Positions 2,347 to 37,932 of a stretch of 40,359 nt of DNA are shown piece by piece (the stretch's first letter is position 1; each line of letters begins with the position of its first letter). The DNA is from a virus: the IMG/VR virus record IMGVR_UViG_3300036851_000374, positions 1 through 40,359 of that record, one strand, 5' to 3'. A program made the translations under genes and the position numbers. The notes under the pieces were generated by a model that was given only the letters and a program-made list of their open reading frames with translations, was not told the DNA's origin and did no database searches.

Positions 2347-4485
2347 ATGCCTGACCTTTTCATAGACATACGGGCGCGTTTCGCCCAATTTCAGGATTCG
2401 CTCAACAGAATCGAACGCAATACGGCGACGAGCGTCCAGCGCATGCGCACCTCTTTCGCAGCGCTCGGAAGAGTTATCGGCGCAGTCGGCGTAACTGTCG
2501 GCACAGCAGCCTTTGCCGGTATCGTTAAGCAAAGCATTCAGGCAGCAGCCGCGCTCGATGATCTTTCCGAAATCACCGGCAGCTCAGTCGAAAACTTAAG
2601 CAAGCTCGACCAAGTCGCACGGATTTCCGGCATCGGCATTGAGACCGTCGAACTTGGACTCGTGCGGCTCACCAAGGCGCTCGCTGGCGCTGACGATGAG
2701 AGCAAGGGTGCGGCGAAAGCGCTTGCTGGCATAGGACTATCAGCCGCAGAGTTGCGCACGCTAGACCCGGCGGACGCGCTACAGAAAATCGCCAAGGCGC
2801 TTGCCAGATATGCAGACGATCAAGGCAAGGTGAACTTCGCGCAGCAAGTTTTCAAGAAAGGCGGCGAGCAGCTTTTGCCGCTCTTGAAAGACATGGCGAC
2901 GGTCGGCAATGTACATGCGCGTGTCACTGGCGAACAAGCAGCACAAGCGGAGCAGCTTCAGAAACAAATCGCGCGGCTCAAAGTGGAATTCGGTGGTGCC
3001 GCGCAAGCGATTGCGCTCAATTTCATTGCGCCGTTGACCCGCTTTTTTACGTTATTGTCCGAAGGCATACGCCTGTTTCGCGAATTTCGTCGCGAGGCGG
3101 CCGAGTTAGCAACATTTGATAAATTCGGACTCTTCTTCGAGAAACGCGAAGAACTTCTGAAATTCAGGCAACAACAGCAGGCGCTTGCGCTCACAGAAGG
3201 ACTAGGTGGTGGGCGACTTGACCCGCGAGACCTGGGCCCACCGGCTGCACTTGAAAAGCTACCTTTTGAGGTCGGCGGCGAGGACGCTGCGAATAAAGCG
3301 AAGAAAGCCGCAGACGCAATTAAGTCTTTCGTGGATTCCTTAAAAAAGGAACGCGATACGCTCGGTTTGACAAGCGTTCAACTCAAACTCTATGAAGCCA
3401 GCAAGCTTGGCATAAAGGGTGCGGCACTCGATAACGTGCGAGCTCTGGCGCAAGAGATTGAAGGCTTCAATCAGGAAGCGGAAGCGTTAAAACGCCGCAA
3501 CGCCGAAGCAGATGAAGCGTTCAAGGTTGATGAGGAAGAACTTCAAACGCGGGAAAATACTATCCGCGGTGTTCGCGAGCGGCTTGATCAATACGATACC
3601 GAAACCTCGCTCATTGGCAAATCTAATCAAGCGCGGGAAATCGCCATTGGTTTTCTTGAGCTTGAGCGCTCAGCCGTCGATAAGGATTCTGAAGCCTATA
3701 AAGTTCTCGGCGAGCGAATTGAAAATGTTGCGAAACGGCGCTCGGCGAAGGAATTTGTTGAAGGTACACGGACAGAGGCCGATAAAATCACCGCTCAACT
3801 TCAAGAGGCTCGCAAATTATTTGATGAAGGTTTTTTCGGCAAAGGGGCAGAAGGTTTTGAAAAATTCGCCGCAGTCGAATTCGATTTAGAAGATAAATTA
3901 CGCGCGATCGGCGAAACGGCAAAAGAAGTAAAAGATCCATTCGAGGATTTGAAGCGCTCGATTGAGGGCTTCGGCCGCGATACCTCGAAGGTCTTCGTTG
4001 ATCTTCTCTTCACCGGCAAGGCCAGCTTCCGCGATCTCATTCAAAGCATGATCCGCGAGCTCGCCGAGCTTGCTGTCTACAAAGCGATATTCGAGCCACT
4101 ATTCGCAAGTTTCGGCGGATTCGTCACTAAGGCGATTGTCCCGCACATCGGCGGCATTGTAGGTTTTGACAGTTTGCCGTCAAGGCACGTCAACGCCTTG
4201 GCGTTCGCTCGTGCACCACGTCTGCATTCCGGTTTCTTGCCAAACGAGTTCCCGGCGATTTTGCAGAAGGGTGAGCGTGTTTTCACGAAACGGCAAATGG
4301 AAAACCTGGCGCCAGCCAGCGGCGGCATGGTTGTCAATAATTCGATCACGGTGACGCCAGGAGGCGCCGCAGTTACCAGTTCATCTCAGGGCAACGAAAT
4401 GGCACGCAGTCTGCAAGCCGTGCTCAACGATTGGGCGCAGCGAGAATCGCGCCCTGGCGGCTTTTTCGCCTCGCGCAATACCTGA
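2347..4485 (+). CDS. Tail tape measure protein
   Basis: A 712-residue, largely helical protein following the GT chaperone. A predicted membrane-like helix near residues 34-58 (GRVIGAVGVTVGTAAFAGIV) is followed by a long coiled coil. The C-terminal part (about 545-590, DLLFTGKASFRDLIQSMIRELAELAVYKAIFEPLF) matches the lambda tape-measure C-terminal domain. Using the usual 0.15 nm per residue, the length predicts a tail of roughly 105 nm. The C-terminus ends with a Gly-rich FAS.G segment and a NNSITVTP motif common in these proteins. Confidence 0.88.
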   Translation: MPDLFIDIRARFAQFQDSLNRIERNTATSVQRMRTSFAALGRVIGAVGVTVGTAAFAGIVKQSIQAAAALDDLSEITGSSVENLSKLDQVARISGIGIETVELGLVRLTKALAGADDESKGAAKALAGIGLSAAELRTLDPADALQKIAKALARYADDQGKVNFAQQVFKKGGEQLLPLLKDMATVGNVHARVTGEQAAQAEQLQKQIARLKVEFGGAAQAIALNFIAPLTRFFTLLSEGIRLFREFRREAAELATFDKFGLFFEKREELLKFRQQQQALALTEGLGGGRLDPRDLGPPAALEKLPFEVGGEDAANKAKKAADAIKSFVDSLKKERDTLGLTSVQLKLYEASKLGIKGAALDNVRALAQEIEGFNQEAEALKRRNAEADEAFKVDEEELQTRENTIRGVRERLDQYDTETSLIGKSNQAREIAIGFLELERSAVDKDSEAYKVLGERIENVAKRRSAKEFVEGTRTEADKITAQLQEARKLFDEGFFGKGAEGFEKFAAVEFDLEDKLRAIGETAKEVKDPFEDLKRSIEGFGRDTSKVFVDLLFTGKASFRDLIQSMIRELAELAVYKAIFEPLFASFGGFVTKAIVPHIGGIVGFDSLPSRHVNALAFARAPRLHSGFLPNEFPAILQKGERVFTKRQMENLAPASGGMVVNNSITVTPGGAAVTSSSQGNEMARSLQAVLNDWAQRESRPGGFFASRNT

Positions 4486-28513: not shown

Positions 28514-29530
28514 CTATTTGGTTTCGGTTAATTCGGCGCGGCGGGATTTGTACCGCTCTCTCGCCTGCTTGCGCTCTTCCTCTTTGTCAATCGCATCAAT
28601 GAGCGTGCCATCGGCATCCAGAACATCGATATCCGTCGTCTTGTCGAAGCGGTCAAGCAGCCAAGCGAGCAGGACTTTCGGCGCTTCGTTTTTCTTCGTT
28701 ATATCCGGATCTGGAGTGCTATCCTTCGCCTTGCGCAAGCGTTGCTTGACGGCTTCGGTTTGCGTCGCAGGCTGCTCTGCCGAGCCCTTCGGCGGAAACG
28801 CCTGTTCGACTGTGGTTTCGCCTTCCCTGATCGCGGTCAAGAGCCCGCGCAAAGTGACTAGATGCTCCAGCGTGATGTCCTCGCGCCCAGTCACATTCAG
28901 CGTTTCAAAAATTCGTTCTTCAGAGACGCCAAAACCTTGGAATGCCTTCATTGCATCGGCGCGGCGGTTCTCGAGCGTTTTGAAATCGCCCATCACGGTT
29001 TTGCGCGCCGCGGCGTAGACATCGCTCCAGAATGCCTTGGGAATACCTTTCATGATCGCGTTACGAAGTGCGATCGAGCATGCTGCATTGGCGGTGACAC
29101 CGATCATGTCGGCCTTGTAGCGCCGCCCATGCTTGTCAGTGATTCGGCGCTTGACTTCGTAGCCAATTTTGACGTTCCTTTGCATGTCCCAAAAAATGCC
29201 CTGCGCAGTGACGAATTGCTCGCCTTCGTCGACGGTGCGCGCAGCGGCGTAGCAATTTCCCCAAGCCGACGCCAGCACTTCAGCGAGTCTTGCGCTCGGG
29301 CCTTCGATGACCTTGCCGTCACGTGGCAGCGCGTAGAAGCATTCCTCGGCGATCGTTTCGTTGAGCGAGACCATCGCCAGCGCTTCGTCGCGGAATTGCT
29401 TGATGGACCGCGGATAGCGCTTGGCCGTAGTGACCTGCATATTGATCTCGCTCGCATTCAACTGCGCGAGCGTTGAGGCGTCCATTTCGACGACCGGAAG
29501 GTCGCGTTCAAATGTTTCGGGCTGATTCAT
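28514..29530 (-). CDS. Putative recombination protein (candidate single-strand annealing protein)
   Basis: A 338-residue protein directly behind the YqaJ-type nuclease, sharing an ATGA overlap with it. The central block (EGPSARLAEVLASAWGNCYA at 76-95, then AQGIFWDMQRNVKIGYEVKR and MIGVTANAACSIALRNAIMK) is strongly patterned and seems conserved in phages. It lacks motifs I can assign to RecT, Erf or Rad52 types. The C-terminal third is charged and probably flexible. Exonuclease/annealing pairs normally lie together, so a distant RecT-like or new annealing family is the best inference. Confidence 0.55.
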   Translation of the reverse strand: MNQPETFERDLPVVEMDASTLAQLNASEINMQVTTAKRYPRSIKQFRDEALAMVSLNETIAEECFYALPRDGKVIEGPSARLAEVLASAWGNCYAAARTVDEGEQFVTAQGIFWDMQRNVKIGYEVKRRITDKHGRRYKADMIGVTANAACSIALRNAIMKGIPKAFWSDVYAAARKTVMGDFKTLENRRADAMKAFQGFGVSEERIFETLNVTGREDITLEHLVTLRGLLTAIREGETTVEQAFPPKGSAEQPATQTEAVKQRLRKAKDSTPDPDITKKNEAPKVLLAWLLDRFDKTTDIDVLDADGTLIDAIDKEEERKQARERYKSRRAELTETK

Positions 29531-30408
29531 TCTTTTGGTCCTTTCAATAAAAATGTCCTCACTCCGGGCGAGGTTTTAATGAATTGATCGTAAATTTGCG
29601 GATGCGCTTCTCTGAACGCTAACTTATCAAAGCGATGACTCTCTCGGCATTGCTTCCAAGTCGCTAATGGTTTTCCTTGATAGACAAGCGTATCGGCTTC
29701 GCCCATAAAACGTTTGATGAAGAGCTCTAATTGTTTTTCTTCCATTTCGTGTGTTTTCATCTGGCCGCGTAGCAGTGCGAGATGCAGCGCAGTCATCGCG
29801 ATTTCATACGGTGCCTCGACTTCTATCGCCTTGGAGGTGCGATAACGTAATTGAACATCCTCGAGCGTCACTGGCTCCGGCGGTTCCTGGCGTTTAACGC
29901 GCCCCCAAAATTCGCGCTCGGCTTCGGTGATAAGCTCAATCAGTTCATCGTCGCGTTCTATCCGATAAAGTTTGAAATCGCGGCCGGCGATGAGCACCGG
30001 CACGTAAGCCAAGACAAACCCGGTCACTGCGAACTGATGCTGAATTTGGATGATGTATGGCTGCGGGATTTCGTCGGTATTTTCTTCGCCGAAATCGTGC
30101 GCGGTCGCGCTTGTTTTTGCTTCGACAAGCGCATCACGGGAAATGCCGTCAATCGTTGCCCAGCGCCAGGGGTTTGCCGGATCAATAATCTTCGCCCCGC
30201 GGCGGGTCACTGGCATTCCGGTTTGCTTGGTGAATGCATCTAGCGTCACTGACTCAAGCGCTTTGCCGATTTCCATGGCAAGCGTGGTCGGCTGCTGCGG
30301 CAACTGGCCGAGTTTTTCAAGAAATAACGTTAGAGGTGTTTTCCAAGGCGAAATACCGAGCGCTGCCGGCGCGTCGGATGCCCCCAGTCCCTCTCGACGG
30401 TCAGTCAT
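29527..30408 (-). CDS. YqaJ-like recombination exonuclease
   Basis: A 293-residue PD-(D/E)XK nuclease of the YqaJ/lambda-exonuclease type. The N-terminal GLGASDAPAALGISPWKTPL (7-26) is the family hallmark. Active-site residues Asp87 (TIDG), Glu96 and Lys98 (VEAKT) follow the D-x8-E-x-K spacing. It would resect double-strand ends 5' to 3' and feed the annealing protein. ATGA overlaps join it to both neighbours. The C-terminal helices (about 185-293) are family extension. Confidence 0.82.
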   Translation of the reverse strand: MTDRREGLGASDAPAALGISPWKTPLTLFLEKLGQLPQQPTTLAMEIGKALESVTLDAFTKQTGMPVTRRGAKIIDPANPWRWATIDGISRDALVEAKTSATAHDFGEENTDEIPQPYIIQIQHQFAVTGFVLAYVPVLIAGRDFKLYRIERDDELIELITEAEREFWGRVKRQEPPEPVTLEDVQLRYRTSKAIEVEAPYEIAMTALHLALLRGQMKTHEMEEKQLELFIKRFMGEADTLVYQGKPLATWKQCRESHRFDKLAFREAHPQIYDQFIKTSPGVRTFLLKGPKE

Positions 30409-31298
30409 GAATCAGCCTTCGCGAAAGACGGTTCTGGCGCGACATCAATCCTTTGGTTTGCAAGCCATGAATGGTCGCGCCATACCCGCCACAAATCGCG
30501 CAGCAATCGCTTTTCCATATAGCGCTGGCTGCGCAGATGCGCTTTCTTTTTTGGCCCATCCGCGAGCCGTTCATCTTCAATCAAGCGACGCTGCTTATAG
30601 ACTTCGTAATACGCACCGCGCTGCCGCATCAATGAAGTCCCCACGACAAACATGATCGCGCGGCGCCGCGGATTGAAGCCCATCTTGATCGCTTTATTCG
30701 CTTCAAGGCATCGGCGCTGACGTTCGCCATCAACGAGCCCGAGACCCATTCGCTTCCAGAGTTTCGCGACGCTCGCATAGCCGGATAAATCGCCGGTCTC
30801 GCCGATGATTTGTCCGAAGGTGCAAGCGGAAAGACCTTTCACAGTTTCGACCCAAGCATAAGCGGGCAATTGTTTCGCTTCGCGTTCGAGATCATGTTCG
30901 GCCATCTCGCGATGAGCGGAAATGCGCGCATGCGCATCCAACAATGGCAGCAGATATTTGTAAGCGCGCTCTACCTCCGGCTCGATACTGATCGCAATGA
31001 TTGCCGCCGCTTGGGATAGAGATTTATTTTTGAGCTTCTTTGCGGGAGGCTTACGATAAAGGGCCGCGAGTGATTGAACCTTTTTATAGAGCGCTCGACC
31101 GTTCTCTTTGTCGCCGTCACAGAAGCGCCGACAAATTGCCATCATTTGATTTTGCAGACGCAGTTCTGCGTTCTGAAAATCAAAACGCATGCGGTGATAT
31201 TCGCGGATGGTAGCGATACGGTCGGGCGCTACAGTCTCACCATGGGTAGCAGAGATGCCTAGGTCGCGCCCTTCCGTTTTGCTCGGTTCAAAGTTCAT
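30405..31298 (-). CDS. Transposase_20-domain protein (IS110-type C-terminal domain)
   Basis: A 297-residue protein. Residues about 152-240 (VKGLSACTFGQIIGETGDLS, then AKLWKRMGLG, ERQRR and PRRRAIMFVVGTSLM) follow the C-terminal domain of IS110-family recombinases. The preceding coiled-coil-like region (40-150) is also comparable. The N-terminal RuvC-like DEDD nuclease domain of IS110 enzymes is absent. It is coupled to the YqaJ nuclease by ATGA and lies just downstream of the hairpin array. It could be a domesticated DNA-junction-binding protein or part of an RNA-guided activity; neither is shown. Confidence 0.65.
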   Translation of the reverse strand: MNFEPSKTEGRDLGISATHGETVAPDRIATIREYHRMRFDFQNAELRLQNQMMAICRRFCDGDKENGRALYKKVQSLAALYRKPPAKKLKNKSLSQAAAIIAISIEPEVERAYKYLLPLLDAHARISAHREMAEHDLEREAKQLPAYAWVETVKGLSACTFGQIIGETGDLSGYASVAKLWKRMGLGLVDGERQRRCLEANKAIKMGFNPRRRAIMFVVGTSLMRQRGAYYEVYKQRRLIEDERLADGPKKKAHLRSQRYMEKRLLRDLWRVWRDHSWLANQRIDVAPEPSFAKADS

Positions 31299-31322
31299 TC
31301 ATACCTCATGATGAAAACGGTC

Positions 31323-31777
31323 GGATGCGACACAAGCAACGTGGATAGCACCGGTTTTGTGGTCGCACCCTTCCGAATAAATGCTCATGCGCGCAGATCG
31401 AACCTGGATAACACTCCTCGTTAATGGCACGCACGAGCAAAAAGGAAGTGAATACGCGGCAGCATTTGGGTGCTGGGTTGCAAGATTCACCGTGGCCGCC
31501 GCGCACCATTTGTTTGGGATAGCTCGTGCGGAGCACAGGAGGCTTGGATTCAACATTAGGTTGTTGGCGCGCACGAGCCGGTGAAAAGTTGCCTGCGATG
31601 GCAGGCGGCGGTAGGTTGACACTCGAACTTTGGCCATCGCGGGCGTGAAAAGGGCTCGTGTTGTGCGCAATCATGGCTTGGTAAAGAAACGTCCTTTCTG
31701 GCGCATACACGAGCGAAAAGGATGGTGCGCAGAAAGTCATACTCTGGGTAACATTCGTTGTAGGTTCTGCACACCAT
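31323..31777 (-). ncRNA. Array of seven tandem structured RNA hairpins
   Basis: Reading the minus strand, seven stem-loops follow one another about every 70 bases: 31777-31722 (13 bp), 31714-31654 (8+5 bp), 31640-31595 (8 bp), 31578-31522 (9 bp), 31504-31454 (10 bp), 31438-31383 (12 bp), 31370-31323 (13 bp, one bulge). Stems differ in sequence but keep pairing. Loops of about 20-40 bases share a motif near GTTAYCCAG, usually after a small inner hairpin. All six wobbles are G-U on this strand and would be A-C mismatches on the other. No convincing gene covers the 479-base gap. Confidence 0.75.
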
Positions 31778-32353
31778 TTATAAAATCGCCAGTTCGGCAA
31801 TCTGCTGTTCACTCAATTGATCCCTCACAGGATGATTTCCTTTGAGATGCTTTCGTACTCGATCAATGAATTCGGCGCGTATTTGGTTGCTCTGTGCCAT
31901 TTTTTGATAGAAGGCAAATGCGTCGTCGAGATCCTTTTTATGCGCATCGCCTAATTTGATTTGGCTATCCGGCAACGGGAAGTCATACCAGCGATTGTGC
32001 GCGATGTAGAGCAATCCAGCCTTTGATGGTGGGCCATCTGTCTTCCCTCGATTACTGGCCGCTAAAACGATGCTGCTACGCGTTTCGTGCGCAGCCATGC
32101 GCACAAGATATCTAGCGGCAATTGGGACTAATTCCCAAATGAGCGCTTGAGGTGGAATAGTTATGCAGCAATGTCTGATATCGTCGTGAACCCACTGCAT
32201 GAGCAAGGCGACGGATTTATCCCAATCGCCATCGCATTGCGCGACGGCGCGCTTGGCCATTGCCATGGGCGATTCCGTTTCTGTTTCTATTGCTTCATTA
32301 ACAATCTCACCCGCCAACGCCAAATCATCGATTCGTTCGTTTGCTGTTTTCAT
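31778..32353 (-). CDS. Hypothetical early protein, 191 residues
   Basis: MKTANERIDDLALAGEIVNE opens a largely helical protein with ESPMAMAKRAVAQCDGDWDK and WVHDDIRHCC motifs and a C-terminal AFAFYQKMAQSNQIRAEFID segment. It is the last gene before the RNA array: its TAA (31778-31780) directly abuts the first hairpin. I recall similar phage proteins of unknown role. A functional link to the array is possible only from position. Confidence 0.6.
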   Translation of the reverse strand: MKTANERIDDLALAGEIVNEAIETETESPMAMAKRAVAQCDGDWDKSVALLMQWVHDDIRHCCITIPPQALIWELVPIAARYLVRMAAHETRSSIVLAASNRGKTDGPPSKAGLLYIAHNRWYDFPLPDSQIKLGDAHKKDLDDAFAFYQKMAQSNQIRAEFIDRVRKHLKGNHPVRDQLSEQQIAELAIL

Positions 32354-37856: not shown

Positions 37857-37932
37857 AGCGGGGTGGCGCAGTGGTCAGCGCGCACGGCTCATAACCGTGA
37901 GGTCGCAAGTTCAAATCTTGCCCCCGCAACCA
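37857..37932 (+). tRNA. tRNA-Met (CAU) with initiator-like acceptor
   Basis: A complete 76-base tRNA with encoded CCA (37930-37932). Arms: acceptor 37857-37863 / 37922-37928; D-stem GCGC/GCGC; anticodon arm CACGG-CTCATAA-CCGTG; T-arm GCAAG-TTCAAAT-CTTGC. Pair 1-72 is A-A, unpaired as in initiator tRNAs (C-A in E. coli), and the 3' end CCCCGCAACCA equals that of E. coli tRNA-fMet. Of the three initiator G-C pairs in the anticodon stem, two (30-40 and 31-39) are present; the third is C29-G41. An initiator-like phage tRNA is therefore likely. Confidence 0.9.

Follow-up and report, generated by a model that had tools for sequence, protein, structure and literature searches.

Stem-loop TIGR arrays, as laid out in the main text of Faure et al. 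2025 (PMC12045711), are built of units in the order box C/spacer A/box D/box C/spacer B/box D, and are known with TasA from a Peromyscus gut contig holding 13 stem-loops; the same text states the role of TIGR systems, their natural targets and the origin of their spacers as open. Here we describe a minus-strand locus of IMG/VR virus record IMGVR_UViG_3300036851_000374 (positions 1 to 40,359, the 40,359-nt stretch analysed as a whole and hereafter called the window), in which a hairpin array is followed by a gene for a Tas protein. The locus shares the published unit layout and the adjacent Tas protein, and its identity as a stem-loop TIGR-TasA system is secure; we consider it highly probable that, within such a system, TasA would bind or block DNA through the hairpin guides. 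Different from the described examples are its residence in a phage, a conserved partner gene upstream, units that overlap coding sequence of tasA and an overlap between tasA and an exonuclease gene, the last three of which are absent from the main text of PMC12045711, supplement aside; it is an established kind of system with an anatomy unreported in that text.

The Tas protein is encoded by the next gene after the array:

30405–31298, minus strand: tasA, 297 aa, solo Nop-domain Tas protein

Its sequence has no Pfam match above cut-off, and matches PDB entry 9mty (2.6e-9), which is TIGR-TasR (PMC12045711, main text); a profile of 25 relatives retrieves from the PDB sequences only 9mty TasR (1.7e-29) and 21kl TasH (1.5e-13). 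The AlphaFold model is nearly all-helical (predicted local distance difference test score, pLDDT, 86.5), and its best fold matches are TasR and TasH, followed by the IS110-family recombinases ISCro4/IS621. Family searches and the model reveal no HNH, RuvC or DEDD domain, so that this Nop-domain relative of TasR and TasH is of the TasA type. With the bridge-RNA-bearing IS110 recombinases (IS621, ISCro4) the system shares a C-terminal fold and split guides in hairpin loops, but TasA has no DEDD domain, and many single hairpins take the place of one two-loop RNA. That the hairpins are DNA-level recombination or replication sites, and the protein a degenerate IS110-type transposase, is very improbable: the IS110-like C-terminal domain and the recombination-gene neighbourhood would suit this idea, whereas the missing DEDD or RuvC catalytic domain, the greater closeness of TasA to TasR/TasH than to IS110 by both profile and fold, and the hypervariable spacers on fixed stems in relatives, the opposite of a conserved site, argue against it.

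A preliminary description of the window had placed seven minus-strand stem-loops at 31323–31777, and these are present there (48–61 nt each, spaced ~64–71 nt apart). Two extra units lie outside that interval, inside tasA, so that the initial extent was incomplete and the window holds nine units:

31722–31777, minus strand: tigRNA unit 1, stem 12 bp; spacer A TACAACGAA, spacer B GAGTATGAC; first box C is ACC and last box D is TT
31655–31713, minus strand: tigRNA unit 2; spacer A GAAAGGACG, spacer B AGCCATGAT
31591–31644, minus strand: tigRNA unit 3; spacer A AAGTTCGAG, spacer B ACCGCCGCC
31522–31578, minus strand: tigRNA unit 4; spacer A ACAACCTAA, spacer B AGCCTCCTG
31449–31509, minus strand: tigRNA unit 5; spacer A CGGTGAATC, spacer B GCACCCAAA
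31383–31438, minus strand: tigRNA unit 6; spacer A TTAACGAGG (or 11 nt, TTAACGAGGAG), spacer B GGTTCGATC
31323–31370, minus strand: tigRNA unit 7; spacer A CAAAACCGG, spacer B CGTTGCTTG
31218–31277, minus strand: tigRNA unit 8, located within the tasA coding sequence at its 5′ end; spacer A AGGCATCTC, spacer B TGGTGAGAC
30429–30488, minus strand: tigRNA unit 9, located within tasA at its 3′ end; spacer A TTCATGGCT, spacer B AAGGATTGA

The minus-strand RNA of the array folds with a minimum free energy of −171.9, compared to −141.0 ± 6.9 for its shuffles (z −4.46; 0 of 100 as low), and the plus-strand RNA reaches a z of −1.57. Stem arms differ from unit to unit with their pairing kept, as the preliminary description had proposed: at the 8 proximal positions of the nine units, 84.7% of positions pair within units, and exchanging the 3′ arms at random between units lowers this to 52% on average. 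The further proposal that G-U pairs fix the transcribed strand holds as a bias and fails as a rule: on the proposed strand, 106 related units have 35 G-U and 15 A-C pairs. A detector for complete units finds six strict units on the minus strand of the window and one on the plus strand, and two matches in total in 25 Markov sequences of the same length. The seven-unit stretch contains one stop-free frame (31306–31812), which is weakly unusual (P 0.043).

Each unit follows the layout stem, box C (CCA), 9 nt, box D (TG), a loop of 4–6 nt, box C, 9 nt, box D, stem. Under the preferred parse every spacer of the nine units is 9 nt long, with CCA at 15 and TG at 14 of the 18 respective box places; the cleanest example is unit 7, which reads GGGTGCGA CCA CAAAACCGG TG CTAT CCA CGTTGCTTG TG TCGCATCC. 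The GTTAYCCAG-like loop motif noticed earlier consists of box D, loop and box C, and the inner hairpins that had been reported appear incidental, falling mainly within spacer A in units 2 and 4. Tandem hairpins with variable palindromic stems stand beside a tas gene, as expected of the stem-loop TIGR type, whereas the array has neither identical repeats with spacers as in CRISPR nor the two alternating constant repeats of 8–12 nt of dual-repeat TIGR, the region having one short two-copy repeat. The dual-repeat systems (TasR, TasH, FpTasA) share the Nop domain, the paired 9-nt spacers and the CCA and UG boxes, and differ in their constant edge and loop repeats, in place of which each stem of the window array is private to its unit. 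No described RNA family had been recognised at the outset; Rfam indeed gives none above gathering score for the array, and a phage collection holds no similar DNA, but stem-loop TIGR arrays were published in 2025. The preliminary description was right to see a directional array that acts at the level of the transcript, and among the four roles then suggested, that of guide-type RNAs agrees with the unit anatomy and the adjacent Tas protein. A sponge or decoy for a host protein, another of the four, might be read from tandem hairpins with a common loop motif, but hardly deserves credence: it leaves unexplained the two variable segments of exactly 9 nt set between fixed boxes, the confinement of hypervariability to these spacers in relatives, and the stable pairing with a Nop protein gene across ~38 loci.

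These ~38 related loci (designated by L numbers where needed) carry tasA and, nearly all, same-strand arrays of the same unit grammar with two 9-nt spacers; the TasA relatives were drawn from viral contigs, Rhodoplanes elegans, an Acetobacteraceae metagenome-assembled genome and cultured phages. When candidates are picked by boxes alone, so that stems play no part in selection, 57 of the 114 candidates close to tasA have flanks paired at 7/8 positions or more; of 100 candidates located elsewhere or on the opposite strand, 3 do. No array units were detected in L006, L015, L023, L215 or the fragment L224/L225, and L025 has one doubtful unit. Loci L029–L098 (Paenibacillus and others) were left out as probable IS110 transposases, because their match is confined to the Transposase_20-like part. 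Scaffold0074 of R. elegans carries the tasA locus twice (L026, L027), in apparently identical form, ~63 kb apart. Stem-loop TIGR-TasA is hereby placed in a broad set of phages, with a second conserved gene and with guides that often lie within coding sequence.

A TasA-like gene with the same type of array, in which box D is CG, is also found in the Mycobacterium phages Francis47 and Rich and in Gordonia phage Morrissey. In Francis47 (L227) five hairpins at 2040–2353 precede a gene annotated as transposase or hypothetical, and L229–L236 are arranged likewise. Nine Fromanvirus mycobacteriophages have TasA proteins 94–99% identical, and among distinct versions of units 1 and 4, the two measured, stems differ by 0–4% and spacers by 61–69%; in the remaining units the variation is less even, and spacers are shared between some of the phages. 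Similarly, in a duplicated three-unit block of L017 (2945–3144 and 3636–3835) the frame differs at 12 of 106 bases and the spacers at 41 of 54, all six spacers being changed. Morrissey (L228) has units on both sides of its TasA-like gene 42 (1957–2314 and 3060–3181), and two of its 12–14 bp stems recur with different spacers. Fixed stems with changed spacers are the pattern to be expected of rapidly changing guides. Moreover, because these phages of Mycobacterium smegmatis and Gordonia are easily grown and combine near-identical tasA genes with strongly differing spacers, spacer turnover and target choice become directly testable in common laboratory strains.

Another feature of these loci is the placement of guides inside genes. 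In L003, L018, L028 and others, units occupy the 5′ portion of the tasA frame, in L022 a C-terminal extension, and in L004, L017, L024 and L028 several lie within the frame of the partner gene. Thirteen unit-bearing coding stretches contain 0 stops in the gene frame, as against 12 and 48 in the other two, a result that is partly by construction, open frames having defined the genes. At 18 of 36 loci, the window included, the start of a unit coincides with or adjoins the codons for the terminal Trp-Arg region of TasA, and protein codons thus double as a hairpin arm; in the window, it is the 5′ arm of unit 9 that overlies the conserved Trp-Arg codons.

The partner gene lies directly upstream of the array:

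31778–32353, minus strand: partner gene, 191 aa, all-helical product

Homologues stand beside tasA at 31 of 38 loci, that is at 23 of the 25 of the first set, most of which were used to build the profiles, and at 8 of the 13 fetched after these had been built; none was matched in 103 unrelated viral loci (848 kb). In L215 (2521–3955) the partner gene is downstream of tasA, and the array is undetectable. The family comprises two clades joined by a weak link (hhalign E 6e-4, probability 29%), and the protein has no match in Pfam, PHROG, PDB or the viral fold collection BFVD; its model is of moderate quality (pLDDT 78.5; predicted template modelling score, pTM, 0.44). The main text of PMC12045711 names only ParB-like partners, which go with dual-repeat systems. 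Its TasA-TasParB operons likewise have a second protein beside TasA, but the partner described here has no ParB match in Pfam and accompanies stem-loop arrays. A tentative extension is that the locus may represent a two-protein RNA-guided phage system, with guides dual-coded in the effector and partner frames and spacer pairs replaced fast on a fixed hairpin by a dedicated process, possibly involving the partner.

By analogy with the 2025 study, from which processing, ribonucleoprotein assembly and two-strand targeting are carried over, one leftward transcript of partner gene, array, tasA and exonuclease gene would probably carry nine hairpin guides; the minus strand has no terminator-like site between array and tasA. 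Each hairpin would probably be processed out singly, with a TasA dimer binding its two box C/D pairs, whereupon the 9-nt spacers A and B would pair with opposite strands of an 18-bp site of the form 5′-A-rc(B)-3′ (rc, reverse complement), an orientation that we derive from the 8-nt 3′ overhangs described in the main text of PMC12045711. Since TasA lacks a nuclease domain, binding and blocking are the simplest outcome, and the protein would most likely bind, bend and block host DNA or that of other mobile elements, with no cutting.

Several observations weigh against this DNA-binding interpretation. Boxes are degenerate in units 1, 2, 5 and 6, and in the work reported in the main text of PMC12045711 TasR protected against neither conjugation nor infection by phage. 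The searches made found no target for tandem two-strand pairing above control: within the window, the best self-matches are no better than those of re-paired spacers, and BLAST of a phage collection, whose sensitivity is unproven for lack of a positive control, found no exact 18-bp target either for window units 1–3 or for twelve mycobacteriophage spacer pairs. Unit 9 has nine exact gap-free matches in viral contigs, mostly at gene starts, but the control pattern of re-paired spacers yields 59 matches versus 33 and 9 for the real units 2 and 9, so that these nine are best read as composition.

The spacer pairs of units 2 and 9 resemble a ribosome-binding site followed by ATG. Together with a Nop-domain protein and box C/D-like hairpins, as in the box C/D small nucleolar ribonucleoproteins of archaea and eukaryotes, this likeness could suggest that the hairpins guide TasA to RNA, with host or phage transcripts being blocked or marked; we regard this as improbable. 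Over 125 units the likeness to gene starts is not enriched relative to re-paired spacers (p 0.14–0.35), and gene-start targeting was rejected. Furthermore, the published assays (PMC12045711, main text) showed no RNA cleavage by TasR, neither a fibrillarin nor an L7Ae gene was noticed, and, in contrast to the ribonucleoproteins, the boxes are CCA/TG and the expected target is DNA.

Downstream of tasA lies a further gene:

29527–30408, minus strand: YqaJ/RecE-like exonuclease gene, its start overlapping the end of tasA by 4 nt

A tasA overlap with a PD-(D/E)XK exonuclease gene also occurs, with a Cas4-type enzyme, in several unrelated Fromanvirus mycobacteriophages, and L007 has a Cas4-domain exonuclease just downstream and L017 a YqaJ homologue upstream. 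This arrangement raises the alternative that TasA guides a neighbouring PD-(D/E)XK nuclease in trans, here YqaJ, as a split RNA-guided nuclease or a starter of recombination. We judge it unlikely, because most relatives have no such neighbour within reach of tasA, the genes that adjoin it being others (baseplate hub, portal, terminase, SbcD, Sak4), and exonucleases are common in phage early regions anyway.

Elsewhere in the window, a tRNA gene at 37857–37929 (plus strand) is the sole Rfam match. Spacer B of unit 6 (31383–31438), GGTTCGATC, resembles a tRNA T-arm and could point to a tRNA gene, although no target was found. Finally, mini-hairpins of a kind not seen in the window stand between the guide hairpins of L003 at 3139–3606, for example GCCGGC-GGCAA-GCCGGC.
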